DNA from: a virus
DNA: 38,429 nt
Direction: 5' to 3' (one strand)
IMG/VR virus record: IMGVR_UViG_3300002933_000025
Coordinates: 1 to 38,429 of that record
Made by a program: the position numbers and the translations under genes. The notes under the pieces are model-generated. The model was not told the origin of the DNA, made no database searches, and saw only the letters and a program-made list of their open reading frames with translations. Shown piece by piece: positions 14,024 to 36,690 of this stretch. Every line of letters begins with the position of its first letter. Position 1 is the first letter of the stretch.

Positions 14024-15127
14024 TTAATCCTTAAATAAATCTACTTGTTCCCATGGCAAATACAATTTACCAAAGTGACCGTAGTTTGTGGTTGAGCTAT
14101 AAATTGGACGGAATAAATCAAATTTGTTAATAATGCCTTTAGGAGTAAGATCTATTAACTTTAAAATTTTATTAGTCAGTGCCTCGTCATCGTTACTATC
14201 GCTCTTAATATAAAAACTCATTGGTTGTTCTACACCAATTGCATAACTAATTTGGCACGTAGCCCAAGATGCACGTTCACTTGCTACAATATTCTTGGCT
14301 ATATATCTAGCCATATATGCGGCACTACGGTCTACTTTAGTGGGATCTTTCCCACTAAACGCACCACCGCCATGCGGAGCGGAACCACCATATGTATCAA
14401 CAATTATCTTACGACCAGTTAGACCTGTATCGCCGTCTGGGCCGCCAATAACAAAGCGACCAGTTGGATTAATATAGAATTCTGTTTTATCATCTATATA
14501 TATTTCGGGAATTACTTCTAAAATTACTTCTTTAACTCTTGCACGAACTTCGTCGATGCTAATGTCATCGTTATGTTGCGTACTACATACAATTTTAGTA
14601 ATTTTAAGAGGAAAACCAATATCGTTATATTTGAATGTAACTTGCGATTTAGCATCTGGACCAAGCCATGCAATTTCGCCCGAATTGCGATAACGAGTTA
14701 ATCTTTGTAAAATTTGATGACTATAGTAAATTGCAGCCGGCATATAATTTTCAGTTTGATTGCAAGCATGGCCGAACATTAACCCTTGATCACCTGCACC
14801 AAATGAGTCGGTACCTAATGCAATATCAGCAGATTGTGCATGTAGTAAGTTGGTAATTTCTACAGTCCGCCAATCGAATCCAGGTTGCTCGTATCCGATA
14901 TTTTTAATAACTTGGCGAATAGTTGTATTAACGACATCCGGATCTAAATCTCCTTTGTATTCTCCTGCTACAATGACACGGTTAGTAGTAACCAATGTTT
15001 CACATGCACAACGTAATGATGGGTCCTGTTTTGCCATCACTAGATCTAATACTGCATCGCTAATAGCATCTGCTACTTTGTCGGGGTGTCCTTCGGATAC
15101 TGACTCACTTGTAAATAAATAACTCAC
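14024..15127 (-). CDS. metK: S-adenosylmethionine synthetase
   Basis: 367 aa, slightly shorter than bacterial MetK (~384). It makes S-adenosylmethionine from Met and ATP. Motifs intact: SEGHPDK (11-17), GAGDQG (110-115), and GGGAFSGKD (253-261). The start is GTG, overlapping the upstream stop as GTGA. It lies in the operon queD-(54 aa)-queE-(90 aa)-metK. QueE is a radical SAM enzyme, and methyltransferases also need SAM, so a local supply makes sense. It could also offset SAM loss in the infected cell. Phage metK is not common. Confidence 0.96.
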   Translation of the reverse strand: MSYLFTSESVSEGHPDKVADAISDAVLDLVMAKQDPSLRCACETLVTTNRVIVAGEYKGDLDPDVVNTTIRQVIKNIGYEQPGFDWRTVEITNLLHAQSADIALGTDSFGAGDQGLMFGHACNQTENYMPAAIYYSHQILQRLTRYRNSGEIAWLGPDAKSQVTFKYNDIGFPLKITKIVCSTQHNDDISIDEVRARVKEVILEVIPEIYIDDKTEFYINPTGRFVIGGPDGDTGLTGRKIIVDTYGGSAPHGGGAFSGKDPTKVDRSAAYMARYIAKNIVASERASWATCQISYAIGVEQPMSFYIKSDSNDDEALTNKILKLIDLTPKGIINKFDLFRPIYSSTTNYGHFGKLYLPWEQVDLFKD

Positions 15128-15396
15128 TGTTTTAATTTTCCTATTAAATAATCTATTTCGTTATAATAACGATGTTCTTCTACTGGTTCACCCGGACCAG
15201 TCCATACGGCAGTACCCTTGTAAGCGTGTGTTAACCAAAGTTGACGACCTGTTAAATAGCAACGTCGTGGCCACAACAAGTAAACTGATTTAAACTCTGC
15301 ACGACTATTAAAAATATCGTATTCTTCGTCCATCCACATTCCTGTTATGTTCATTCCGTATAAGCCTTGTGGAAACATTCCGTACCTTACTTTCAC
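15124..15396 (-). CDS. Hypothetical phage protein, 90 aa
   Basis: Aromatic-rich, with the central pattern LLWPRRCYLTGRQLWLTHAY followed by GTAVWTGPGEPV, which I recognise only as a recurring T4-like phage hypothetical. Overlaps queE and metK by 4 bases on each side, so it is made with them. No clear metal motif. Function unknown. Confidence 0.7.
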   Translation of the reverse strand: MKVRYGMFPQGLYGMNITGMWMDEEYDIFNSRAEFKSVYLLWPRRCYLTGRQLWLTHAYKGTAVWTGPGEPVEEHRYYNEIDYLIGKLKQ

Positions 15397-16253
15397 TTAC
15401 CCCAACCATTGCCCCATAAGTCTACGTGTAGACGTGGGCTATAATTAAATCCACGGTCACAGCAAATGTTAGCAATGTTTACTTTGTTTGCTTCATAGGG
15501 ACTAACAATTCCACCTTGTGGCATTAAGTATACAGAGCCTTTAAAGCCATCGTGTCTAAATGCATCAACGGCGCAAACAGCTTCGTTAACGTGATCTTCT
15601 GTTTCAACTACAAACTTAAGATAAACATGTCCGTATGTTTGATAAATGTTTACAACCTTAGGTTTAATAGCATCTTCCCAAGTTTCGCCACTTGCACTTA
15701 ACTTAGCACTAACGCTAAACGTAACTTCACGTCCGGGTAATGCATCTGCCCAGTCAATTAAGTAATCCCGGAAGTCTTCGTGTAATTCCTGAGTACCGTT
15801 TGTTTCAAATGTAATATTTTTTAAGTCTGCCATACGTGGATGACTTAGTAGTTCTGCGTATGCACGTTGCCAACCTAACAATGGTTCGCCTCCGGTGATA
15901 ACTAAATGTACGTCATTGCCATTATTCTGTAACCAACAGTTGTTTGGGGTTAGTGCAAGCATTTGATCTACAAGTTCTTCAGTAGTCAATGTAGGACTAA
16001 GGTGTTTAAATGCAGGATGCCAACTAGCATAACTATCGCACCCTGTTTCGACTAAAGGTAATTCTAAGAATGTATTGTACATATGAACTACTTCAGCTAC
16101 ATCATCTGCACCTGTAGATTTCTCGCCCGGCTTGCAACCAAACCCACTACAGGTAAAGTTACATCCATAGGTTCTAAGGAATACGCTAGGTACTCCAACA
16201 AAACGTCCTTCGCCTTGTAAACTATAAAATAGTTCGCTTACTTTGATTTTCAT
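15393..16253 (-). CDS. queE: 7-carboxy-7-deazaguanine synthase (QueE)
   Basis: 286-aa radical SAM enzyme that converts 6-carboxytetrahydropterin (QueD product) to 7-carboxy-7-deazaguanine. N-terminal YSLQGEG..GVPSVFLR and TGGEPLLGW (SAM-binding GGE motif) are typical. The iron-sulfur Cys motif is unusual: C31 and C35 are spaced CxxxC, the next Cys is C40 (Cx4C instead of Cx2C), and another Cys sits at 72 in a ~40-residue insert (TGCDSYASW). I recall similar split motifs in phage QueE proteins. Coupled to downstream genes by ATGA. Confidence 0.93.
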   Translation of the reverse strand: MKIKVSELFYSLQGEGRFVGVPSVFLRTYGCNFTCSGFGCKPGEKSTGADDVAEVVHMYNTFLELPLVETGCDSYASWHPAFKHLSPTLTTEELVDQMLALTPNNCWLQNNGNDVHLVITGGEPLLGWQRAYAELLSHPRMADLKNITFETNGTQELHEDFRDYLIDWADALPGREVTFSVSAKLSASGETWEDAIKPKVVNIYQTYGHVYLKFVVETEDHVNEAVCAVDAFRHDGFKGSVYLMPQGGIVSPYEANKVNIANICCDRGFNYSPRLHVDLWGNGWGK

Positions 16254-16418
16254 TTAACCATTCCAATGCCGGATCACACCGGCTATAATAACAAAATTAG
16301 TAATAATGTATACTAACACAATCATACTACGAATACAAGCAATTAGATCTGCTTCTTTATTTGATTTGCCTGCTTTTTCGCCTAAAGCCTTTGCCCATAT
16401 GTGCCACAGTTTACGCAA
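16254..16418 (-). CDS. Small single-span membrane protein, 54 aa
   Basis: I start it at TTG 16418 (MRKLWHIWAKALGEK), overlapping the end of queD by 8 bases, because this opening resembles other phage proteins and a GTG 20 codons upstream would overlap queD by 68 bases. Charged N-terminus, one hydrophobic segment (SMIVLVYIITNFVIIAGVI) and a short basic end. Function unknown. Confidence 0.55.
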   Translation of the reverse strand: MRKLWHIWAKALGEKAGKSNKEADLIACIRSMIVLVYIITNFVIIAGVIRHWNG

Positions 16419-16926
16419 ACAAGTCCTCGCACCATTCGCGGTGTCCTTCGCGGAATGCCATATTTGATTGTGTTTCACGTACTTCTACTCTATAACACCA
16501 TAAACGATCTGCTTCTGCCTTACCCCAAAAGTCTGGTATATACACACCGTTTACATATTTGTAAAGCATATCTGCTAAACCTTCGCATCCTAGTCTAGGA
16601 AGAATAGTTAGTTTAGCCATGTTACGATGTTCTAATTCTTTATATAATTCTAATTCGGGATCATCTTCTGCTACTAATAAGGTATGATCAAACTGTGATT
16701 GTAATACGTCTTTAAGTTCTTTGAGTCCACCATAATCAGCAGCCCAGTTACGCACATCTAGGTCGTTAGTTCCAAAATAGAACTTCATACTAAACGCATA
16801 ACCGTGGATTAAGTTACAATGGCTATCAGCCTTCCATTGACGATACGCAACAGGGAAAGCATCTACGTACTCTTTAGTACTTGTCCATTTGTAAGTTACT
16901 GCTGGGTATTGAAGCATTGCTGACAT
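16411..16926 (-). CDS. queD: 6-carboxytetrahydropterin synthase (QueD)
   Basis: 171-aa T-fold enzyme that turns dihydroneopterin triphosphate (from FolE) into 6-carboxytetrahydropterin. Seen: catalytic-type Cys37 and zinc-site region HCNLIHGYAF (36-45), DYGGLKELK (64-72), FDHTLLV (79-85) and RVEVRET (146-152). In most QueD proteins the zinc site reads HGHxY; here the second His is Tyr43. It opens the queD-queE-metK operon behind its own promoter. Confidence 0.92.
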   Translation of the reverse strand: MSAMLQYPAVTYKWTSTKEYVDAFPVAYRQWKADSHCNLIHGYAFSMKFYFGTNDLDVRNWAADYGGLKELKDVLQSQFDHTLLVAEDDPELELYKELEHRNMAKLTILPRLGCEGLADMLYKYVNGVYIPDFWGKAEADRLWCYRVEVRETQSNMAFREGHREWCEDLFA

Positions 16927-17007: not shown

Positions 17008-17014
17008 TATTTAT
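17008..17014 (-). promoter_or_regulatory. Possible T4-type late promoter motif
   Basis: GATAAATA on the minus strand, overlapping the stop codon of the phosphoribosyltransferase gene and 82 bases before queD. The overlap with a stop codon weakens it. Confidence 0.25.
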
Positions 17015-17562
17015 CGAGTCCACCAATCTTCCCACGGGAATACGCACCAAATTGGATCTTCCATTTTGTTAATGTTTAGTCCAGCATAGTCTATATCTGT
17101 AAACTCGCTTGCATCGTTATTGATTAAGACAGCAGTACGCACATTTCTACCCCAAATCCCATCCCACCGTTCATTGTCAGGCAAACAACTATTCATCCAG
17201 TCTTGCTTAATCCAATTAAGCGTAGCACCGGAATCGTTAATGTCATCTACAACAAGAATCTTCTTAGCGCATAAACTATAGTCAAAGTCGGCTAATACCT
17301 TGTCGGTCTCGGGTACGTAACCAAACGCATCTTCAGCCATCCACAGGTTAGACTCTGGATTAGCATTATCGTCACGGAAACTTACTTTAAGTGTTTCCAT
17401 TGGTACGTCTAGATATTGACTCAGCATAAGTGCGGGAACTAAGCCTCCACGTGTAAGTCCGACAACATAGTCGGGACGCCAATCATCTCGGGCCATACTA
17501 CGAATAATTTCGTGTACCCAACCTTTAACTGTTGAATCTTTGTAAAATACTTTTCTAGACAT
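17011..17562 (-). CDS. Type I phosphoribosyltransferase
   Basis: 183 aa. The PRPP-binding motif is ILVVDDINDSGATL (~101-114), typical of xanthine/guanine/hypoxanthine-type phosphoribosyltransferases. An upstream loop VVGLTRGGLVPA resembles the PPi loop of these enzymes. The base it uses cannot be read from sequence; purine salvage is most likely. In this context a deazapurine base is also possible, but that is speculation. It overlaps the previous gene by 8 bases and ends the folE operon. Confidence 0.85.
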   Translation of the reverse strand: MSRKVFYKDSTVKGWVHEIIRSMARDDWRPDYVVGLTRGGLVPALMLSQYLDVPMETLKVSFRDDNANPESNLWMAEDAFGYVPETDKVLADFDYSLCAKKILVVDDINDSGATLNWIKQDWMNSCLPDNERWDGIWGRNVRTAVLINNDASEFTDIDYAGLNINKMEDPIWCVFPWEDWWTR

Positions 17563-19211: not shown

Positions 19212-19667
19212 CTATTGTTTCTTAATATTATATATAACTTCGTTATAAGAATAGATCTCGTTTAACAATGTATCTTTCTCAGTCGACTGATGCCACGCTT
19301 CTTCCTTGGCAAAATATGCGTTTCGATATTTTTTGTATACAGTATCAGACAACAAGCCATATTGCTTATTTTGAATAGCCTGATACAATTCAATTATATT
19401 TTCCTCAGCATTTTCTATTAGTATCGCAGGTGCTTTGAGATTCTCTAATGCAGTCTTTTCTTTTAACCATTTATCGCAATTTTTTTGTAACTCGTCCCGT
19501 GTTTTTAACGGGATATTGTCGTAGTAATGGCCCATAAACTCTTTTTTAGCAGATTCTAATAATTGTTCGCCCCGCTCTGAAAGCTGATCGTACAGGGCTT
19601 CGTTTAATAAACACAGATCGTAATCTGCAGATTCTGGCCCAACACCTAAGTGTGCTAATGGTCTCAT
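19212..19667 (-). CDS. Hypothetical protein, 151 aa
   Basis: Begins MRPLAHLGVGPESADYDLC and is almost all helical and charged, with long amphipathic runs (LQKNCDKWLKEKTALENL). Overlaps folE by 4 bases (ATGA) and so is made with it. No motif recognised. Confidence 0.62.
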   Translation of the reverse strand: MRPLAHLGVGPESADYDLCLLNEALYDQLSERGEQLLESAKKEFMGHYYDNIPLKTRDELQKNCDKWLKEKTALENLKAPAILIENAEENIIELYQAIQNKQYGLLSDTVYKKYRNAYFAKEEAWHQSTEKDTLLNEIYSYNEVIYNIKKQ

Positions 19668-20401
19668 CTTGAGTATTCCTGCTGTAGTTTAATGTTATCA
19701 AAGAACTCTTTCTTTGTATTCATATCAGTTTGGAAAGCACCGGTTAGTACAGTAGTCTGCGTTAACGAACTAGCAGCCATAATACCACGATTTTCGCAAC
19801 ATCCGTGCGTGGCCTGTATATAAACTGCTACATTTTTACTACCTGTGGCGTTGCTTATTTCTCTTGCGATGTCGTTACAGAGCTCTTCCTGTAATGTACC
19901 TCTACGAGCACACCATTGAGCAATGCGAGTATACTTGCTGAGACCAATAAGTCTATCGGCGGCAATGATCCCGATATAAGCGACACCAACAACTGGTTGA
20001 TGATGATGGCTACACATACTACGAAGCTCACTACGTACAACCAACATACCTTTGTAACCATCATCTACCTCATTTGGAAAACTTGTTGCGTCCGGAGCAG
20101 TTTCATACCGACCTGCCATGATTTCTTTAAAATACATTTTAGCTAATCGTTTAGCTGTACCTTGACTATTGGGATCATTTTCGCGATCAATTAGTAATGC
20201 ATCTAGTACCTTTTCAAATGCTTCTGTGGCTTCTTTGATTAGGATTTCTTTATCACCTTCGTGTAAGTATTCTGCAATGTTATCACCTGCCCAAAAACGT
20301 TTCTTATCACGTTTCATTCTAGCACGAATGTTATCGCCTAGGTATCCTTCTGAATACCCTTTTTCGTCCATTATATTAATTAAGTGTTCTTTTTCTGACA
20401 T
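19664..20401 (-). CDS. folE: GTP cyclohydrolase I (FolE)
   Basis: 245 aa. It converts GTP to dihydroneopterin triphosphate, the first step to 7-deazaguanines. Zinc and catalytic residues are intact: SMCSHHHQP (128-136; Cys130, His133) and HGCCENRG (199-206; Cys201), matching Cys110/His113/Cys181 of the E. coli enzyme. The segment DRLIGLSKYTRI is also typical. An N-terminal extension of ~45 residues is present. It starts a long operon ending with the phosphoribosyltransferase. No strong sigma-70 site is seen in the 57-base gap before it. Confidence 0.95.
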   Translation of the reverse strand: MSEKEHLINIMDEKGYSEGYLGDNIRARMKRDKKRFWAGDNIAEYLHEGDKEILIKEATEAFEKVLDALLIDRENDPNSQGTAKRLAKMYFKEIMAGRYETAPDATSFPNEVDDGYKGMLVVRSELRSMCSHHHQPVVGVAYIGIIAADRLIGLSKYTRIAQWCARRGTLQEELCNDIAREISNATGSKNVAVYIQATHGCCENRGIMAASSLTQTTVLTGAFQTDMNTKKEFFDNIKLQQEYSR

Positions 20402-20458: not shown

Positions 20459-21043
20459 TTATACGAAGTCAATAGTTCGTAAGTCCGGATAGTCTTGTAA
20501 TGTTGGTATAGGATCTACCGATGGTAACTTTTCTATACCTAGACGACAAGTTTCTAAGGTTGGGCAGTAGTGATATCCTTCGCCAAAGGTCTTTTGATCT
20601 TGCCAAGGACTAATACGTAGATCTCTACCATCACTACGCATTTTACTTAATTCTCGATATTCCCATTCGTTATCTAGAAGTATAGCACCACCTTTACCTA
20701 GTTGTAAAGGTTTGCCGTGACCGAAACTCAAACATTGTTTCATACCTAGGCGATACATACCTTGTTTTAATACACGGGCACTATCCCAAATGTTAGTATA
20801 TCCAAATGAATACTCGCCCTGGAAGTTCCAGTAGTCCGTTTTCATTTTGTAACGTACACCGAGTTCACGCATTAACTGTGGAATACTAATATAGGTAAAT
20901 GCTGTAAACTCTGTGTAGGTAATACAATCTAGTCTGAAACAAAGTTCGATAGCATGAGTACAACCATCTGTGACAACTGCGTAAGGAGCACCTGTAAATT
21001 CTGCTAGTGCAGATTCAAAGTCGAATAGTGTTTGAAAGCTCAT
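20459..21043 (-). CDS. Short DegT/DnrJ-like PLP aminotransferase-related protein
   Basis: 194 aa, about half the length of DegT/DnrJ/EryC1 sugar aminotransferases (~370-400). The PLP region is kept: YAVVTDGCTHAIEL (cofactor-binding loop), a WDSAR stretch near residue 87, and SFGHGKPLQLGKGGA with the candidate Schiff-base Lys111. The C-terminal domain is much reduced. It may be a minimal active enzyme or a degenerate one. It overlaps galE by ATGA, which supports a sugar-nucleotide role. Confidence 0.72.
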   Translation of the reverse strand: MSFQTLFDFESALAEFTGAPYAVVTDGCTHAIELCFRLDCITYTEFTAFTYISIPQLMRELGVRYKMKTDYWNFQGEYSFGYTNIWDSARVLKQGMYRLGMKQCLSFGHGKPLQLGKGGAILLDNEWEYRELSKMRSDGRDLRISPWQDQKTFGEGYHYCPTLETCRLGIEKLPSVDPIPTLQDYPDLRTIDFV

Positions 21044-22026
21044 TTGCTACAGTACCATTTATATGCACTATCAATGATAGTTTCAATATTACTATACTTG
21101 GGTTCCCACCCTAATTTTTCACGTGCATCTGTAGCATCGGCAACAAGCTCTGCTGGATCGCCCCAACGCTTAGGTCCGTAGTTGATAAACGGTATACCGT
21201 ATTTCTTAACAACATAATCTACGATTTCCTTATTACTTACACCTGTATTAGTACCAAGGTTAAATATACTTGCACCCACACTAGGTGTGCCGTGGAGCCA
21301 ATTCGGGAATAGATATTCAACACCTCGAACGTGGGCCTGTGCGATATCCCATACGTGTACATAGTCACGAATACAAGTACCATCGGGTGTGTCGAAGTCA
21401 TCGCCGTTGATAGTAAACGCACGATTCTGTAAACTTGCTTCTAATACTCGGGCAACAATATGAGTAGCAAAGGGTTCTTGACCTAAATCTGATGTACCTG
21501 GCATAGCACCAGCGGCATTAAAGTAACGGAAGCACATACTAGGTAGTGCATACGCACCCCAATAGTCTTGAAGAATTTCTTCAGTCATTGCTTTAGTTTT
21601 ACCATAAGGACTAATAGGATTCTTACGTGCGTATTCGGGAATAGGTAACCGCTCGGGTTCGCCATAGACACTAGCACTAGAGCTAAACATAATCAATGGC
21701 TTCTTATCGAAGTCCTTGACAAAGTTTAAGAGTTTGATTGTTTTGCTAATATTATTGTCATAGTATTCGCCGGGATCAGACATACTAGGGCTTACAAGGC
21801 TTGTGCCAGCACAATGTACAATAACATCTGGGCTATAATCGTAGATGGTAGCAAGAGCATCATCGTCGGCAAAATCAGAGATAAAGAATCCATCTAAGTC
21901 CTTTAATGTATGTTCACGTCGAACACGGTCAATAACAACAACATTATCACCATTTTGTTTAAATGCTCGCGCAACATGGCTACCAATATAACCACATCCA
22001 CCTGTTACTACAATTCTTCTCGTCAT
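21040..22026 (-). CDS. galE: UDP-glucose 4-epimerase-like enzyme
   Basis: 328-aa short-chain dehydrogenase/epimerase. NAD-binding GGCGYIGSH (9-17), SSSASVYGE, the catalytic pair in SPYGKTK (YxxxK), RYFNAAGA and GTCIRDYVHVWD are all typical of GalE. It likely interconverts UDP-glucose and UDP-galactose or the N-acetyl forms. With the DegT-like protein and the nearby glycosyltransferase it suggests a phage sugar-modification set; it also uses the NAD+ that the salvage genes could supply. Confidence 0.92.
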   Translation of the reverse strand: MTRRIVVTGGCGYIGSHVARAFKQNGDNVVVIDRVRREHTLKDLDGFFISDFADDDALATIYDYSPDVIVHCAGTSLVSPSMSDPGEYYDNNISKTIKLLNFVKDFDKKPLIMFSSSASVYGEPERLPIPEYARKNPISPYGKTKAMTEEILQDYWGAYALPSMCFRYFNAAGAMPGTSDLGQEPFATHIVARVLEASLQNRAFTINGDDFDTPDGTCIRDYVHVWDIAQAHVRGVEYLFPNWLHGTPSVGASIFNLGTNTGVSNKEIVDYVVKKYGIPFINYGPKRWGDPAELVADATDAREKLGWEPKYSNIETIIDSAYKWYCSK

Positions 22027-23187: not shown

Positions 23188-24366
23188 TTAATATTTGCCT
23201 TCATGAGTGTGCTTGCGATAATCGGTATCCATACGCAACCAAGATTCACCTTGACCTTGTAAAATATCTAGTACACGATCAATACAACCGTCTGTCCAAT
23301 CGCTGATACGACCTTGTTGTGCGTGTGGACGTTGTAATAACGTGTTTAGTTTAGTCATTGCATCTTCTAATGACCAAGGAACGTATAACCGGCTTGCGTC
23401 ATTTGCAAAAGTTTCAGGGAAGCTACGATAAGCAGGATATAAAACATTCGATCCAAGCGTATCTGCTTCTGATACGGTGTTTGAAACCCAGTCTTGTAAA
23501 GCGCAATTAAACAATACACGAGTATCGTTAAGCAAATTATAGTAATCATTCTTTTCTAAATCCTCGTAGACTGTTAATAGTCCACGCTCTTGTAAATCTC
23601 TTGTACGGGCCATATAGCTATCGTTATTAGACTTTAACTTGCCGCCGTTAAACAAACAAAACTCTACCTTGGGCAAGTGGAAGTTATCGTTCCATGCTTC
23701 AATTAAGTCCATATAAAAGTCTGGTTGTTTCTCTTGATCCCACCGTGCAGCAAAACCTACACGCATAGCACGATCTTCAAATGGTTTTAAGTCGCCTTTA
23801 ACACGGTTGCGTACTTCTTCTTTACCAAATGCCAATCCTGAAATATTGTAGATAGGACTTTCCCACCCTGCAATCTTCATGTGCATTACCATTTCTTCAT
23901 TACTAGCTAATGTAATGTCGGCGAAGCTATCAACCATCTTTTCGTAAAGTCCCATCCATTTTTGCATACCCCACACATGGACAAAATCGTCTGGGTCAAT
24001 GGATTGAGCAAGGCAACGCACAGCAATCCTAGGACGATGAGCTTGTGGTATCTGATCCATAATGTAAGGGAGGCTTTCAATTCCCGAAGTAAACATATCT
24101 TCAAAGTAGATAATATCTTCATTGGTTACTTCTCCTTGTTTCATCATTTTGACCAATTTGGCCATTTGTGTCATTGAATAGTAAGTGCGTCCGTGTGCAT
24201 CTAATACTTGCCCGGTTACGATTGCTCGATCTGTGTCTAAAGTTTCACCTTCTACAATAACATAATCGATTCCACGACGCTTAAAAACAGCCTCATTCCA
24301 ATCTTGTAGTTGTAAAGTGTAGCGACCTTTGTATTTTTCCAGCCCAATATAAAATAGTTTACGCAT
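23188..24366 (-). CDS. GT-B glycosyltransferase (group 1-like)
   Basis: 392 aa. The C-terminal half has GFAARWDQEKQPDFYMDLIEAW, a typical start of the second Rossmann domain, and LFNCALQDWVSNTVSEADTLG, which corresponds to the acidic E-x7-E donor-binding region of GT4-type enzymes, here less canonical. It should transfer a sugar from a nucleotide donor; the acceptor could be phage DNA, a virion protein or host glycan. It opens a transcript behind a near-consensus promoter and an intrinsic terminator. Confidence 0.78.
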   Translation of the reverse strand: MRKLFYIGLEKYKGRYTLQLQDWNEAVFKRRGIDYVIVEGETLDTDRAIVTGQVLDAHGRTYYSMTQMAKLVKMMKQGEVTNEDIIYFEDMFTSGIESLPYIMDQIPQAHRPRIAVRCLAQSIDPDDFVHVWGMQKWMGLYEKMVDSFADITLASNEEMVMHMKIAGWESPIYNISGLAFGKEEVRNRVKGDLKPFEDRAMRVGFAARWDQEKQPDFYMDLIEAWNDNFHLPKVEFCLFNGGKLKSNNDSYMARTRDLQERGLLTVYEDLEKNDYYNLLNDTRVLFNCALQDWVSNTVSEADTLGSNVLYPAYRSFPETFANDASRLYVPWSLEDAMTKLNTLLQRPHAQQGRISDWTDGCIDRVLDILQGQGESWLRMDTDYRKHTHEGKY

Positions 24367-25201: not shown

Positions 25202-25579
25202 TTATTCCTTAACAAATGGTCCTAACACTGGTGCAGTCCAGCCTACCGGTTTAAGTACTTTGCCATCTTCGCGCTTACGCACCTTGCCTGTTTCGTGATC
25301 GATCTTGGCAAAGTTAGTACGCATGACTTCTTTCCACGCACCTTCAGCATCAAACCCTGCGCTATGAATAGCACCAATAGTAACAACTAGAATATCGATA
25401 AGCGCATCTAACTGTTCTACTGGATCGCACTCATCAACTGCTACCTGTAGTTCAGCCACTTCTTCTTTGATTAAGTTTAGATATAGGTCGTACTGATCTT
25501 CATTAATTTCATTGTTTACTCTGCCTACAGTTTGATCGCAAGCCTTCATAAATTTTTCTTGATCGCGGAATGGGTTCAT
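25202..25579 (-). CDS. MazG-like all-alpha NTP pyrophosphohydrolase
   Basis: 125 aa. Start at 25579 (MNPFRDQEKFMKACDQTV) after the site AAGGATTAAA; an earlier ATG adds a hydrophobic stretch that is probably not translated. The metal-binding pattern is LIKEEVAELQVAV (EExxE) and LDALIDILVVTIG (ExxD-like, with D), as in MazG/dUTPase-type enzymes. It likely cleaves nucleoside triphosphates to monophosphates, shaping the nucleotide pool or ppGpp-like signals. Confidence 0.8.
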   Translation of the reverse strand: MNPFRDQEKFMKACDQTVGRVNNEINEDQYDLYLNLIKEEVAELQVAVDECDPVEQLDALIDILVVTIGAIHSAGFDAEGAWKEVMRTNFAKIDHETGKVRKREDGKVLKPVGWTAPVLGPFVKE

Positions 25580-25628
25580 TTTAATCCTTAATAATGTTAA
25601 ACAAACTATGAAACGGAATACAGTAAAC

Positions 25629-25714
25629 AGAAAATCTAATAGCATCACTTAAGGTGCTAAAAGATTTTCTTGTGCGGGTACCGCAAGTCATGTAGTAGCT
25701 AACTGTGTAGTTAG
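25629..25714 (-). ncRNA. Three adjacent stem-loops in a 131-base gap (structured RNA candidate)
   Basis: In minus-strand order: stem CTAACT/AGTTAG with loop of 4 (25714-25699), containing the stop of the gene before; stem CTTGCGG/CCGC-CAAG with one bulge and a 3-base loop (25687-25669); and a long arm AGAAAATCT/AGATTTTCT (25670-25629) enclosing a second stem TAGCA/TGCTA. No T-run follows, and no T-arm or acceptor stem makes it a tRNA. It may be a processing or stabilising element or a regulator of the MazG-like gene. Confidence 0.45.
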
Positions 25715-25988: not shown

Positions 25989-26459
25989 TTAGATTACAAT
26001 TGATTGGGTTGGACGGGTAAGGTTATAAGAAATTGTGCATCCGTTTTCACCGTCCTCGGATACATCAATTGTTACTGCACGGTTTGGATACTGTGCAGAA
26101 ATTTGGGTATATAAGTCATCTGCTAACATTTCGCAAGACTTAAAGTTTAATTCTAAAACGGAACCTTGACTATTGTTATTGGAGGTATTCCAGTTATACA
26201 AGGACTCGAGCCAACGTTTAAATTGGATGAACTCGATGTCGCGATCGTTGTGGAACACATCGATCCACACCCTGAAGTGAAACATATGGCGATGAGGATT
26301 AGCCAAAAACGATACATCATATTCCCCTGCGGTATTTAATTTAGGATCTGTTGCGGCAGCAGGATAGCAATGAATACCTTCCTTTTGAAACGTAACCCAA
26401 ATTTGTCTTTGGGCAGAATTCATAATGCGATCTGTTACTTGTCTTTGTTCTTGATTCAT
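25989..26459 (-). CDS. Second T-fold (QueD-like) protein, 156 aa
   Basis: Not canonical QueD, but the order of motifs fits the T-fold of QueD/PTPS: a His cluster HRHMFHFRVWIDV (56-68), NDRDIEFIQFKRWL (71-84, like the vDF-LK helix), SCEMLADDL (108-116, like the PT-EN-A motif) and VTIDVSEDGENG (129-140, like V-V-ET). It overlaps the next gene by ATGA and sits in the transcript with dpdA. It could act on a late 7-deazaguanine intermediate; DpdL, a predicted 7-carboxy-7-deazaguanine decarboxylase in phages, is one candidate identity. Family call moderate, reaction unproven. Confidence 0.6.
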   Translation of the reverse strand: MNQEQRQVTDRIMNSAQRQIWVTFQKEGIHCYPAAATDPKLNTAGEYDVSFLANPHRHMFHFRVWIDVFHNDRDIEFIQFKRWLESLYNWNTSNNNSQGSVLELNFKSCEMLADDLYTQISAQYPNRAVTIDVSEDGENGCTISYNLTRPTQSIVI

Positions 26460-26971
26460 TTAATTACTTCGTCTTTAGTGTACTTCGACCAATCCGTAAA
26501 CTTACTACGGTCCTTTAAATCATGTAAGCTGTGACACCAAACACCTGGGTTAGTAGCCGCAAAGTCTTTGTCGTCGAGCTTAATTGTAGCATTATATCCT
26601 AGCATTTGTAAATACGGCAATTTCACCGAAATCATTGGGATGAAGTTGTTATACTCACATAACGGCCCTTCTACTAATCCTTCTGAACACTTAACATCGA
26701 TATCCAATGTACATAGTAATCCTAATCGTAATGCAACAAGGATCATATTTTCCCAAGATTTCCAAACTGCGGAATCATTGATCGCTGGATTAGGGAAACT
26801 TTGGTTTGCACCAAAGTAAACATGTCGGCACTCATTTTTATGAGCCATAAGTAAGATGGTTTCGGTATCCTGTACGCCTACAACAAATAGAGTACGCATA
26901 CCAAATGCCGGTGTATGCTCTACTTCTGTGCCTATAAAGAAATTAACTTCTTCGTGTCCTGCTCTAATCAT
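26456..26971 (-). CDS. Hypothetical protein, 171 aa, in the dpdA gene group
   Basis: Alternating strands and helices (FFIGTEVEHT, RTLFVVGVQ, HVYFGANQSF, CTLDIDV, FIPMISVKLPY, NATIKLDDKDF) suggest an alpha/beta barrel-like fold. It has conserved-looking Cys and His residues, e.g. NPGVWCHSLHDL near residue ~145, but no radical SAM CxxxCxxC. It is coupled to the T-fold gene downstream and overlaps the DUF465 gene upstream. I recall relatives in phages near 7-deazaguanine genes but no assigned function. Confidence 0.65.
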   Translation of the reverse strand: MIRAGHEEVNFFIGTEVEHTPAFGMRTLFVVGVQDTETILLMAHKNECRHVYFGANQSFPNPAINDSAVWKSWENMILVALRLGLLCTLDIDVKCSEGLVEGPLCEYNNFIPMISVKLPYLQMLGYNATIKLDDKDFAATNPGVWCHSLHDLKDRSKFTDWSKYTKDEVIK

Positions 26972-27164
26972 GATTTGCTTTGCTTTCCCTGAATGCTAGT
27001 TCTTCTTTAAGTTTAACAATATCGTCTTTGATATGCAACCTTTGTTTCTTCAATTTGTTTAATAGTTCATCTTGGAATGCTCCAGACTTTTCCAAACCAT
27101 CAATCTTCTTGTCTAACGTTGCATGTTCTTTTTCTAAATGGATAATACGTTTTGGGATTGTCAT
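26964..27164 (-). CDS. DUF465/YdcH-like small coiled-coil protein, 66 aa
   Basis: Single long charged helix, HLEKEHATLDKKIDGLEK ... LNKLKKQRLHIKDDI, matching the YdcH/DUF465 family pattern (bacterial proteins of unknown role). Good ribosome site AAGGAAAT before the ATG. Overlaps the next gene by 8 bases. Confidence 0.82.
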   Translation of the reverse strand: MTIPKRIIHLEKEHATLDKKIDGLEKSGAFQDELLNKLKKQRLHIKDDIVKLKEELAFRESKANHD

Positions 27165-27165
27165 G

Positions 27166-27474
27166 TTATTTCCTTGTAATTGTTATATTAGACACACGTT
27201 CGTCTGACCTATGATATATTACTGTTGATGCTTGTGCAACTCCTGGGAGTGCCATACCACCTATAAGTAACCAACACCACCATGGCATATCCCATATACT
27301 ATCAAAAAATATACCAAAGGTCATACACCACATAAAATATACCAGTACAAACATAAGAGACATAATGCAATAGGTAAATGCCGCAAAGCATAGCCCCATT
27401 TCGCGTAATACAAAAGTACAGGCAATTAAACCTACCCACCACCACCAAGCAATATGATTAAAGATCCAATCCAT
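27166..27474 (-). CDS. Multi-span membrane protein, 102 aa
   Basis: Three to four hydrophobic, Trp/Met/Phe-rich segments (from WWWWVGLIACTFVL onward) and a short polar C-terminus. Its ATG overlaps the dpdA stop as TAATG, so it is translated after dpdA. Function unknown. Confidence 0.7.
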   Translation of the reverse strand: MDWIFNHIAWWWWVGLIACTFVLREMGLCFAAFTYCIMSLMFVLVYFMWCMTFGIFFDSIWDMPWWCWLLIGGMALPGVAQASTVIYHRSDERVSNITITRK

Positions 27475-29084
27475 TATTCGTTCTCTAAGTTATCTAATGC
27501 TGTTTCATCTAATCCAGAATCGTCAATATGATGTTCTTCCTCTTGCTCAACTTCAAACAATGCATTAAACATAGTCTGGCTGTTTAATGCTTTTTTACCT
27601 TTAAAGCCACGTGTACCTACAATTTCCATCCAGTAGTTACTGTACGTTTCAATAATAGCTTCTGCGGTTGCACGATCCGGGGCAGAAAAGATTGCTTCTA
27701 CAATATCTTCAAAGTATTCGCCGCCTGGGCCAGTACACCGCATCATGGCAGGATGTTCTCCTGCATCAAATCTACGGTTAGCTTCTTGTACCGCAGTTAA
27801 ATGTAAGTAAACATTATGTCCCATTAACAATGCATAGCTAAATGAATCCCAAGATGTTTTGCCCCATTTACCATTCTTGTTTACATCTGGCAATACATCA
27901 TACATTTCTGGATCTTTAAAGTTTTCTTCTGTAAGTGTAACACCTGCTTTAGGTACACCCGGTTTATAGATACAGATATCTTTTACTGTTAGCATGTCGC
28001 TAATAGGACTGTCTTGCCAACGTGGGTAAATACCATCTGCTACTACAGCATCTGACCACTTGCGTGTATCTGCTGCAAACTTTTTATCATCGCAACTTGG
28101 CGCCATTCTGTACGACCACTTACTGTTGTTTTCAAATACATTTTCAAAATATACTTGTCCATTAGCAGTCGCTAGGAATGGGCTGGCACAGTCGAAACTA
28201 ATTGTAAACGCAGGATTCACGTGTTTTCGAATAGCTCTTTGAATAACAGTTAATAGTACCGCCCATTCTAGCTTGCTTGTACCCAAGAAGTGCATCCAGT
28301 CATGTACGCCTTCTTGTAGTAAATTATCGTATCGTAATGCTACTAGTCTGCGAAGTACTAAATGTACATCACACATATTCTGACCGCCCATAGACCAACC
28401 ATTAAAGTGAGTATCTGGATATTTAACAGGATCGCAATAATCCTTCATAATCTCGTACCACTCGTCTGCATCCTTATGGTTCGCGCCTTGTAGAACATTT
28501 AAGAACTTAGCGCCTCCATTGGCAACACCCTTGCGATGTTTCATGAAATAATCGTTATTGAACTTAGTAGCTTCTACTGCTTCTGTAAGCGTTTTAATGC
28601 CACACTTGTCACTAGCGTTCTTATCATGAATGACCCAAGTTGGAATATCAAGGATCATGCCATAATCAGCAATACCGTCAAGCCAAGCCAAAACTTGTTC
28701 ACGTTTTTTCTGGGCTTTCGGGCATCCTGAATGGGCCTTCCAATCGCCTTCCCATAACCCTTTAGCAATCTGGAATCCACCGGAGTCGCCTAAGATTAGT
28801 GTGTTGGGATCTCGATTGCGTACCATATCCTCTGACCAATCCTGCTTATTAAGGTCGAGGTTTGCGTGGCCACCGGAGTAAAGCGACCACTTATAAGGAA
28901 ACAATGCTTTCTGACTATCAAGCCAGTTAAGTTGTTCCATATCTGTTAACCCCTGCGGAAAACGTGCAGGATCTACATATTCTTCATTACGTTGCTTACC
29001 AATAAAGGTAGCATAGAAACCACTGATAGCTGGTAAGAACACAGCATAGTCTAGTTGTTTTGCGGTTAGGTTATCTTGTTCCAT
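27474..29084 (-). CDS. dpdA: DNA 7-deazaguanine transglycosylase DpdA (TGT-like)
   Basis: 536-aa TIM-barrel enzyme of the tRNA-guanine transglycosylase superfamily. Motifs: LILGDSGGFQ (96-105, Asp100 matching the catalytic/substrate Asp of TGT), FLNVLQG (194-200), GWSMGG (229-234), HFLGTS (265-270) and ISFDCASP (295-302, Asp298 matching the nucleophile). It lacks an obvious Cys-rich zinc site and is longer than bacterial TGT (~375), as in phage DpdA. Phage DpdA swaps guanine in DNA for a 7-deazaguanine, protecting against restriction. Pathway partners folE, queD and queE are all in this window. Confidence 0.88.
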   Translation of the reverse strand: MEQDNLTAKQLDYAVFLPAISGFYATFIGKQRNEEYVDPARFPQGLTDMEQLNWLDSQKALFPYKWSLYSGGHANLDLNKQDWSEDMVRNRDPNTLILGDSGGFQIAKGLWEGDWKAHSGCPKAQKKREQVLAWLDGIADYGMILDIPTWVIHDKNASDKCGIKTLTEAVEATKFNNDYFMKHRKGVANGGAKFLNVLQGANHKDADEWYEIMKDYCDPVKYPDTHFNGWSMGGQNMCDVHLVLRRLVALRYDNLLQEGVHDWMHFLGTSKLEWAVLLTVIQRAIRKHVNPAFTISFDCASPFLATANGQVYFENVFENNSKWSYRMAPSCDDKKFAADTRKWSDAVVADGIYPRWQDSPISDMLTVKDICIYKPGVPKAGVTLTEENFKDPEMYDVLPDVNKNGKWGKTSWDSFSYALLMGHNVYLHLTAVQEANRRFDAGEHPAMMRCTGPGGEYFEDIVEAIFSAPDRATAEAIIETYSNYWMEIVGTRGFKGKKALNSQTMFNALFEVEQEEEHHIDDSGLDETALDNLENE

Positions 29085-29697
29085 AGAACTTTGTTTGCTC
29101 GATTAATTTAAGGTCTTGCCTGAAGTAGTCTTGTACTTTATTAAGGTATTTAGAATCGTTTAGAGTATTGATAAAAATTTCTTTGTAGTTACGTCTAATA
29201 GGACTATCGTCGCTTACATGTTGCTTTTCATAATTGTGATATCTATTAGGCATTCCGTGTTCTGTTAAAAAGTTGCTAAAGTTTTGACGATAGTTCTCAT
29301 CAAACCAAAAGAATATACAACGATTTAAATCTAGGCCTTCTAAGAAGTATACTTGTTTCTCGGTGTGGTCGTCAAATGCAATCTTGTCAAATATTAACTC
29401 TAACATCTGTTTAGAGAAAGCATCCATTGGCCAATCTCTATGATATAGATACAAGTACTCGGCCATACCACTTGCCCAACGCTCAACGGGATCACGCAAA
29501 ACAACCATTGCAGTTTTATGATATAAGTTATCTGCGTGATAATTGTAATTTTCCCAGCCCCAATCTTGTAAATTGGGCTTAGTCCACGATGTAGCGTTCT
29601 TAGGAATATTTACATACATTAGGTCTGTGTCCGACTTTGACCAACATTCGCCAAACACATGACCGCGAGGTTCGTAGTAGTTTACAAACCCATCCAT
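29071..29697 (-). CDS. Sulfotransferase-like protein, 208 aa
   Basis: Two PAPS-binding signatures fit: YVNIPKNATSW (28-38, 5'-phosphosulfate loop) and VVLRDPVERWASG (65-77, 3'-phosphate motif). The rest is helical and Tyr-rich. It would transfer sulfate, usually to a sugar or hydroxyl group; the acceptor is unknown. It overlaps dpdA by 14 bases, so they are made together. A role in tail/capsid glycan or base modification are both guesses. Confidence 0.78.
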   Translation of the reverse strand: MDGFVNYYEPRGHVFGECWSKSDTDLMYVNIPKNATSWTKPNLQDWGWENYNYHADNLYHKTAMVVLRDPVERWASGMAEYLYLYHRDWPMDAFSKQMLELIFDKIAFDDHTEKQVYFLEGLDLNRCIFFWFDENYRQNFSNFLTEHGMPNRYHNYEKQHVSDDSPIRRNYKEIFINTLNDSKYLNKVQDYFRQDLKLIEQTKFYGTR

Positions 29698-35887: not shown

Positions 35888-36256
35888 TTACTCTGGATTT
35901 TCTTCAGAGTAGTTACGCATAATAATACCAGCTTCAGCGTTAGCTTCATTTTCTTCTTCACTACCAGTCGCGCCACTTTCGTTGTTTAAACGATCTTCAA
36001 CATCTTGTTTGTAATGTACAAGTTCATGCGCTAGTGTACGCATAGCATCTTTAGGATGACGTCCCTTAGTGACTAAGTAGATGCATTTTTCTTCTGGATT
36101 AAAGCAACCAAATGTCATGCCATCTGCACCAGGAATACGATCTACTACTTTAACTACAGGTAACTGTTTAATATCTAAATGCTTTTGTACAAATGGCAAA
36201 AACGATTTAATAAAATCGTTCCCGTGTGACTCGTGCATTACTTCAAAGATTTTCAT
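35888..36256 (-). CDS. Zinc metallopeptidase-like protein, 122 aa
   Basis: Start at 36256 (MKIFEVMHESHG), overlapping the Dps-like stop as ATGA. The HExxH motif is HELVH (77-81), and an acidic helix EEENEANAEA (100-109) can give the third zinc ligand (Glu-zincin style). Short for a full protease, so it may process a specific phage protein. It is in the same transcript as the modular protein and the Dps-like protein. Confidence 0.75.
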   Translation of the reverse strand: MKIFEVMHESHGNDFIKSFLPFVQKHLDIKQLPVVKVVDRIPGADGMTFGCFNPEEKCIYLVTKGRHPKDAMRTLAHELVHYKQDVEDRLNNESGATGSEEENEANAEAGIIMRNYSEENPE

Positions 36257-36690
36257 TTTGCAGTAGCTCTTAATTGCCAACTATGTTTGCGATGTGCATC
36301 CATACGCTCTGCCAGGAAGTTACTGAAACCATGTTCGCCTGCGGCTTCAGCCATATCGTATACACGTTTTAATACTTTAACCATGTTGTCTGAATCTTGT
36401 AATAACTCAGCAACCATCTGCTCTGCAGGTACTACACTTGTTTCATCATCAATTTGACTTAGTACACTAAAGCGACTATTACTACCAGGAGCATAAGCAC
36501 CCAAGCTACGAATCTTTTCAGCAAATGGATCAATGGCCGCATACACTTCAGAATTAATGGTATCAAACAATGCGTGTAGTTCTTGAAAGTTAATACCCTC
36601 AACGTTCCAATGAAAGAAGTGTGCCTTTAGATAAAAACTAAATTCACTTGCAAATGCTATCTTAGCGGCTTTGATTAATGCTTCGTTCAT
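36253..36690 (-). CDS. Dps/ferritin-like protein, 145 aa
   Basis: Ferroxidase residues line up with Dps: HWNV (His27), ELHALF (His39), IDPFAEK (Asp54, Glu58). Length (145) fits Dps subunits. Dps forms 12-mers that store iron and protect DNA from peroxide. In a phage it could guard DNA in the infected cell or be packaged. ATGA overlaps with both neighbours. The N-terminal Lys tail that binds DNA in E. coli Dps is missing. Confidence 0.85.
   Translation of the reverse strand: MNEALIKAAKIAFASEFSFYLKAHFFHWNVEGINFQELHALFDTINSEVYAAIDPFAEKIRSLGAYAPGSNSRFSVLSQIDDETSVVPAEQMVAELLQDSDNMVKVLKRVYDMAEAAGEHGFSNFLAERMDAHRKHSWQLRATAK

Follow-up and report, generated by a model that had tools for sequence, protein, structure and literature searches.

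The stretch of DNA analyzed here, a viral record of 38,429 bp (IMG/VR record IMGVR_UViG_3300002933_000025; hereafter, the window), very likely encodes a 7-deazaguanine DNA modification pathway that does without QueC, with a small T-fold protein (TF) as the tailoring enzyme (Table 1). We moderately favor a fuller model for this large, uncultured phage, in which TF processes 7-carboxy-7-deazaguanine (CDG), a DpdA-like transglycosylase inserts the resulting base into DNA and a glycosyltransferase (GT) adds a sugar. Gene content, folds, residue conservation, the mutual exclusion of TF and QueC, and the linkage of TF to DpdA and to the GT are shown, in phages known here from their genes alone; from these we infer the substrate and product of TF, the insertion into DNA and the glycosylation.

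An initial annotation of the window had listed FolE, QueD, QueE, a transglycosylase, a second QueD-like protein and a coupled unknown protein (here U171), and no QueC. All the listed genes are present, on the minus strand, and we too found no QueC in the window. Because IMG/VR gives no completeness estimate for the record, the window may be a fragment. Its own lack of QueC therefore says little, and our claim is instead based on complete genomes of related phages and on large contigs. About 150 viral loci have a gene block with the order PolB-clamp-transglycosylase-U171-TF-GT-FolE-(QueD)-QueE, either complete or truncated where the contig ends, and so it is not a chance assembly.

Table 1 Genes of the window that are discussed in the text
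Feature	Position	Strand	Basis
S-adenosylmethionine synthetase, adjoins QueE	14024-15127	minus	PF02773, PF02772, PF00438, E <= 1e-32
QueE, 7-carboxy-7-deazaguanine synthase	15393-16253	minus	NCBIfam QueE models, E ~1e-11, below cut-off
QueD (HGY phage variant), 6-carboxytetrahydropterin synthase	16411-16926	minus	PF01242, E 1.6e-13
Phosphoribosyltransferase	17011-17562	minus	PF00156, E 5e-14
FolE, GTP cyclohydrolase I	19664-20401	minus	PF01227, E 5e-41
Short DegT-like aminotransferase	20459-21043	minus	PF01041, E 2e-9
NAD-dependent epimerase (GalE-like)	21040-22026	minus	PF01370, E 5e-46
GT, GT-B-type glycosyltransferase, core TF partner	23188-24366	minus	X1 homolog and PDB profile matches
MazG-like pyrophosphohydrolase, within the block	25202-25648	minus	PF01503, E 3e-10
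TF, T-fold protein, candidate QueC-replacing tailoring enzyme	25989-26459	minus	phrog_17812 (PHROGs function: none assigned)
U171, uncharacterized protein	26456-26971	minus	overlaps TF by 4 nt
TGT/DpdA-type transglycosylase, 536 aa, divergent	27474-29084	minus	AlphaFold model, pLDDT 90.5

The reading of TF as a second QueD-like protein is borne out by its AlphaFold model (pLDDT 90.5), which has the element order b-b-a-a-b-b and whose best PDB matches are E. coli QueD (4ntk, E 9e-5, probability 1.00) and 6-pyruvoyl-tetrahydropterin synthases. Structure prediction was required for this result. PF01242, the family of QueD and 6-pyruvoyl-tetrahydropterin synthase, does not detect TF, no NCBIfam model matches it, and sequence-only PDB searches with profiles of TF, the transglycosylase and U171 returned nothing useful. 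TF shares with the PF01242 family the T-fold, the zinc His triad and the pterin-binding Glu: H30/H56/H58 and E135, which correspond to H16/H31/H33 and E110 of QueD, are invariant in 46 sequences. Seven further residues (H70, R73, E76, S108, E110, D136 and E138) are also invariant. By contrast with that family, the aligned TF sequences have no Cys at or adjacent to the position of the catalytic Cys27 and no pair corresponding to Asp70-His71. TF should therefore bind a pterin-like ring and a metal rather than perform QueD chemistry; in other words, sequence and model point to a protein that is QueD-like in fold and binding site, and that should not be QueD-active. In some loci TF forms the C-terminal part of a longer protein (L171 9212-10363, L176 9395-10276, L271 and L265; these include Bakedbeans gp176 and MA9V-3, among others), and long TF-containing proteins carry the BFVD domain labels AAA domain and alcohol dehydrogenase N-terminal.

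We searched for QueC with PF06508, which detected the controls 9g and nt-1 at E < 1e-53. No full-length match was found in 12 TF-bearing named phages, one of which (D479) has a partial match. In 54 related IMG/VR records, the matches were few and weak and none was convincing. Those that we inspected are NadE-like: the four retrieved from among the matches over the cut-off in G007, G009, G010, G011 and G013 are NAD synthetases, and that of G040 sits in a NadE-like open reading frame. The weak matches of G054, G034, G035 and W08 lay outside the inspected set. An NAD synthetase gene also occurs within ~1 kb of QueE in four large relatives (L162-L165). By contrast, QueC is present in all eight tested phages that have QueD/QueE and lack TF, with a full-length match in seven and a partial one in Moby. 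TF and QueC thus look mutually exclusive, in a comparison with a modest sample that ignores kinship among the phages. This exclusion fits a protein that does a job in QueC's place. The initial annotation suggested that preQ0 might be made with QueC from the host, which leaves the exclusion unexplained. QueF was also sought, and no credible match was found in 25 TF-bearing records, although a control was detected. TF is still the best local candidate for a tailoring enzyme, as first proposed. Neither outcome that would have spoken against the initial annotation was seen: by sequence the transglycosylase does not group with tRNA-type TGTs, and TF retains its pterin-site residues in a group without a full-length QueC.

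Of 50,697 phage records, 27 contain a TF homolog, as do at least 597 viral contigs among the matches listed. In PA5oct, phiST, ACP17, RHph_I1_18, BUCT-ZZ01, Phosso, Bakedbeans, X1, Ahp1, D479 and MA9V-3, no more than a few kb separate TF from FolE, QueD or QueE. A gene for a tRNA-guanine transglycosylase (TGT) or DpdA is found within 10 kb of TF in 239 of 260 unique loci, and FolE, QueD or QueE in 183. When the count is restricted to the 102 unique loci that extend 8 kb or more to either side of TF, TGT/DpdA is present in 95, FolE/QueD/QueE in 99, both in 92 and at least one in all 102. Some loci were fetched with a TGT query; the subset fetched by TF alone gives the same pattern. Four dissimilar TGT/DpdA types occur beside TF, namely the window type, the DpdA2 type (X1, ACP17, BUCT-ZZ01), the short phiST type and the 9g-DpdA type. 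Therefore TF, and no particular DpdA, is the constant. A P-loop kinase-like gene adjoins TF in short-DpdA clusters (L002 9323-9802, where the phiST protein matches AAA_18 at E 9e-7, and L176 10276-10746 in MA9V-3, recognized by sequence).

A few loci have TF apart from the early biosynthetic genes. In Faecalibacterium phage Roos, the genes for TF, a TGT-like protein and a Vut_1 transporter (E 2e-42) are consecutive, and FolE and QueD were not found anywhere in the 54-kb genome. The TGT-like gene was recognized by eye from its motif DSGLF and has no Pfam match. Compact GT-TF-TGT modules occur in Magnetospirillum, Aurantimonas, Methylobacterium and Rhodospirillaceae contigs (L359, L361-L363, L365, L360, L357). 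Those of Aurantimonas and Magnetospirillum have no FolE or QueE within 10 kb, while Magnetospirillum has a QueD-like gene nearby. Therefore, TF likely works on a deazaguanine rather than a pterin, and probably acts after the pterin steps. Vut_1 (YhhQ-like) transporter genes adjoin TF at two loci that showed neither FolE nor QueE in the vicinity (L360 9393-9917, below the Pfam cut-off, and L175 11204-11875), which suggests that import of the base replaces its synthesis.

The transglycosylase is divergent. The 536-aa protein has no match in Pfam (E <= 0.1), and hence none to PF01702, nor in PHROGs or NCBIfam. However, all 17 PDB Foldseek matches of its model at E <= 0.001 are TGTs (best E 1.7e-6, probability 1.00), with TM-scores that are modest (up to 0.55 by target length). 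Candidate catalytic residues D100 (GDSGGFQ) and D298 (SFDCASP, the putative FDC nucleophile), both Asp, are invariant in 39 homologs. An hhalign comparison with E. coli Tgt is weak (16%), yet the motifs line up, pairing NVLQG with IIQG, GWSMGG with GYAVGG and FDCASP with FDCVMP. The alignments (A2 and A8) contain no invariant Cys cluster, and the Cys3-His zinc site of tRNA TGTs was not seen in them. The profile of the window protein matches that of the family found in X1, ACP17 and BUCT-ZZ01 (TGTx) with an hhalign probability of 97.8%, and TGTx in turn matches nt-1 DpdA2 (100%, E 2e-78). A direct comparison of the window profile with that of nt-1 DpdA2 was negative, so the link to DpdA2 runs only through TGTx. 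Through that intermediate, and with no match to PF01702, the protein appears to group with DpdA2-type proteins and not with the tRNA TGTs of Pfam; the initial annotation had called it DpdA-like. Judged by its sequence, it is a divergent DpdA-like TGT rather than a tRNA-type TGT.

The initial annotation, which read the cluster as leading to a carboxy (dCDG) or plain deaza (dDG) form of the base, was right in part. It overlooked the GT, and hence a probable sugar decoration of the final base too. The window GT itself has no Pfam match. Its homolog in Xanthomonas phage X1 (WEM34306; 24% identity, tblastn E 1e-11) belongs to PF00534 (E 8e-12), and the family profile matches PDB glycosyltransferases from E 0.0013. 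Among loci where TF is flanked by 6 kb or more of sequence on each side, the GT accompanies TF in 97 of 98 with the window-type transglycosylase, 8 of 8 with DpdA2 and 3 of 3 with the 9g type (108 of 109 for these three longer types), but in none of 12 with the short phiST type. It adjoins TF or lies within ~1-2 kb of it in the unrelated phages PA5oct, ACP17, X1, BUCT-ZZ01 and Phosso. The GT is linked to TF as tightly as the transglycosylase is. In most complete loci a DegT-like gene lies between the GT and FolE, and in the window both this gene and a GalE-like gene are there. The GalE-like epimerase could supply a sugar nucleotide, and the DegT-like protein is a possible sugar-nucleotide enzyme. 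On the simplest reading of the GT linkage, the deazaguanine would be the acceptor of the sugar.

Taken together, we propose that FolE, QueD and QueE would make CDG, which TF would process instead of QueC, the enzyme that converts CDG to preQ0. The likeliest single reaction for TF would be the one predicted for DpdL, in which a metal-dependent decarboxylation yields 7-deazaguanine, although we assign this particular activity only tentatively. The DpdA-type transglycosylase would then swap guanine in the phage DNA for the product of TF. In the lineage of the window, the dedicated GT would then decorate this base with a sugar, and the resulting bulky mark would counter restriction; we somewhat favor the view that the GT acts on this base.

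Pathways by which phages modify their DNA with preQ0 and dG+ were described by Hutinet et al. 2019 (PMC6884629). The system of the window resembles the DpdA/preQ0 pathway of 9g, CAjan and nt-1 in its phage-encoded FolE, QueD, QueE and TGT-superfamily DpdA, but lacks QueC and QueF and has the T-fold protein and the GT in addition (PMC6884629). For Mycobacterium phage Bipper, which lacks only QueC, CDG was suggested as a possible base; there the absence was noted as an exception, whereas here it is a property of a group and tied to TF (PMC6884629). A conserved, uncharacterized enzyme family would take QueC's place in phage 7-deazaguanine pathways. Work by Cui et al. in 2023 (NAR) reportedly found dCDG and dDG and predicted a CDG decarboxylase, DpdL. 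Possibly the TF family (e.g., phiST CGPG_00067) is this predicted enzyme. Both would perform a QueC-independent step on CDG, but the DpdL scheme is not known to include a glycosyltransferase. If they are the same, the role was already predicted, and what is new is the analysis of fold and residues, the exclusion of QueC, the spread over DpdA types and the link to the GT. Cellulophaga phage phi38:2 was among the phages in that study (PMC11515303).

It is conceivable, with the odds slightly against it, that glycosylated 7-deazaguanine occurs in the DNA of hundreds of large phages and at a few bacterial or archaeal loci, with the base made, without QueC, by QueE and a new T-fold enzyme, inserted by diverse DpdAs and given its sugar by a dedicated GT. 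Glycosylated 7-deazaguanine is not known among the derivatives found in DNA. The model predicts guanine replacements of a new, sugar-bearing class. The alpha- and beta-glucosyltransferases of phage T4 act on 5-hydroxymethylcytosine in DNA. If our proposal is right, they resemble the GT in being GT-B-type enzymes that glycosylate a modified phage base; however, the base differs, the GT family of the window resembles PF00534, and the acceptor here is putative. The cultured phages PA5oct/Paride, X1, ACP17, BUCT-ZZ01 and phiST encode the two architectures, so that mass spectrometry of their DNA could test the prediction. Bulky modifications of guanine would be relevant to the escape of these phages from restriction enzymes and to the misrepresentation of some viral DNA in sequencing libraries.

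FolE, QueD, QueE and the transglycosylase were said in the initial annotation to have their key residues intact, which holds for QueD in part. In an alignment with E. coli QueD (whose numbering is used here), the window protein keeps Cys27, Asp70-His71 and Glu110, but its zinc site is not intact, as two of the three zinc His residues are replaced by Tyr (H16 and H33; HGY instead of HGH). The HGY change is also found in Iggy, R5C and RHph_N17, phages with QueC whose QueD likewise lacks H16 and has Phe or Tyr there; it therefore marks a phage type of QueD and not a broken gene. QueE shares 47% identity with the protein annotated as QueE in Synechococcus phage BUCT-ZZ01 and carries the phage-type motif CNFTC...GCDSY.

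Several points weigh against the model of TF-processed CDG with DpdA insertion and glycosylation. Vibrio phage D479 has TF together with a QueC-like PP-loop protein (E 6e-9), which we rejected as a QueC candidate, since it is partial and has SGIDS in place of SGGxDS. The transglycosylase matches no Pfam TGT model and has no Cys/His zinc site like that of tRNA TGTs, so its activity is proposed from its fold and a few motifs. Moreover, if TF simply decarboxylates CDG, the resulting 7-deazaguanine offers the GT no obvious C7 handle, be it a hydroxyl or an amine. Either the bond formed by the GT is that of a C- or N-glycoside, or TF has another product. In the latter case TF would not be a decarboxylase, but would convert CDG, or CDG already in DNA, to a handle-bearing derivative (e.g., an alcohol) that the GT uses. 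An acceptor made by TF fits the near-constant presence of the GT with the three longer DpdA types, and in one BFVD match TF lies within a protein that the database labels alcohol dehydrogenase N-terminal. However, TF is small (~115-156 aa) and has no nucleotide-binding domain, so a reduction would need a partner, and the short-DpdA clusters have TF without a GT; we regard this version as doubtful. The GT could also act elsewhere, for example on the virion, on lipopolysaccharide or on nucleotide sugars, but the fact that phages without a close relationship all link it to TF speaks against this. For the same reason we think it unlikely that the DNA carries plain dCDG or dDG while the GT, GalE-like and DegT-like genes serve an unrelated glycosylation of the host surface or virion and are nearby by chance. 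GalE- and DegT-type enzymes have many other roles in phages and the short-DpdA clusters do without a GT, but chance would have to place the GT near TF in all five unrelated phages named above and in the compact bacterial modules.

Two other explanations would restore preQ0 as the product. TF holds exactly the zinc His residues that are missing from the phage QueD, and lacks the Cys and Asp-His that this QueD keeps. TF might therefore be an upstream helper that contributes the zinc site to a mixed QueD/TF active site, with host QueC completing preQ0. This is quite improbable: Iggy, R5C and RHph_N17 combine an HGY QueD with QueC and have no TF, Roos has TF and no QueD, and TF excludes QueC. The window being a 38-kb fragment, QueC might instead lie in the unsequenced remainder of the phage genome, with ordinary dPreQ0 as the product. 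Yet no full-length QueC is seen in complete TF-bearing genomes or in related contigs, which reach 417 kb, and the over-cut-off matches retrieved from large contigs are the four NAD synthetases, which makes this explanation most improbable. We thus retain a QueC-free pathway with TF as tailoring enzyme.

Some neighboring genes deserve mention. U171 is linked to the window-type transglycosylase (88 of 98 loci), and has no credible fold or family match in Pfam, PHROGs, PDB profile searches or NCBIfam. X1 WEM34305 resembled it by eye, but hhalign ruled out homology. The phosphoribosyltransferase possibly salvages the guanine released by the transglycosylase; such genes adjoin QueE also in BUCT-ZZ01 and, by sequence, in PA5oct. 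The S-adenosylmethionine synthetase is a possible source of cofactor. Between the clamp and transglycosylase genes, a protein at 29071-29697 has sulfotransferase-like motifs (IPKNATSW and RDPVERWASG) and no Pfam match, and is present in 64 mapped loci. It could be a further decoration enzyme. In Xanthomonas phage X1, a PAPS-reductase-family gene adjoins FolE (L172 5855-6388). Finally, the window encodes a Ferritin/Dps-like protein at 36253-36690 (PF00210, E 1e-20).

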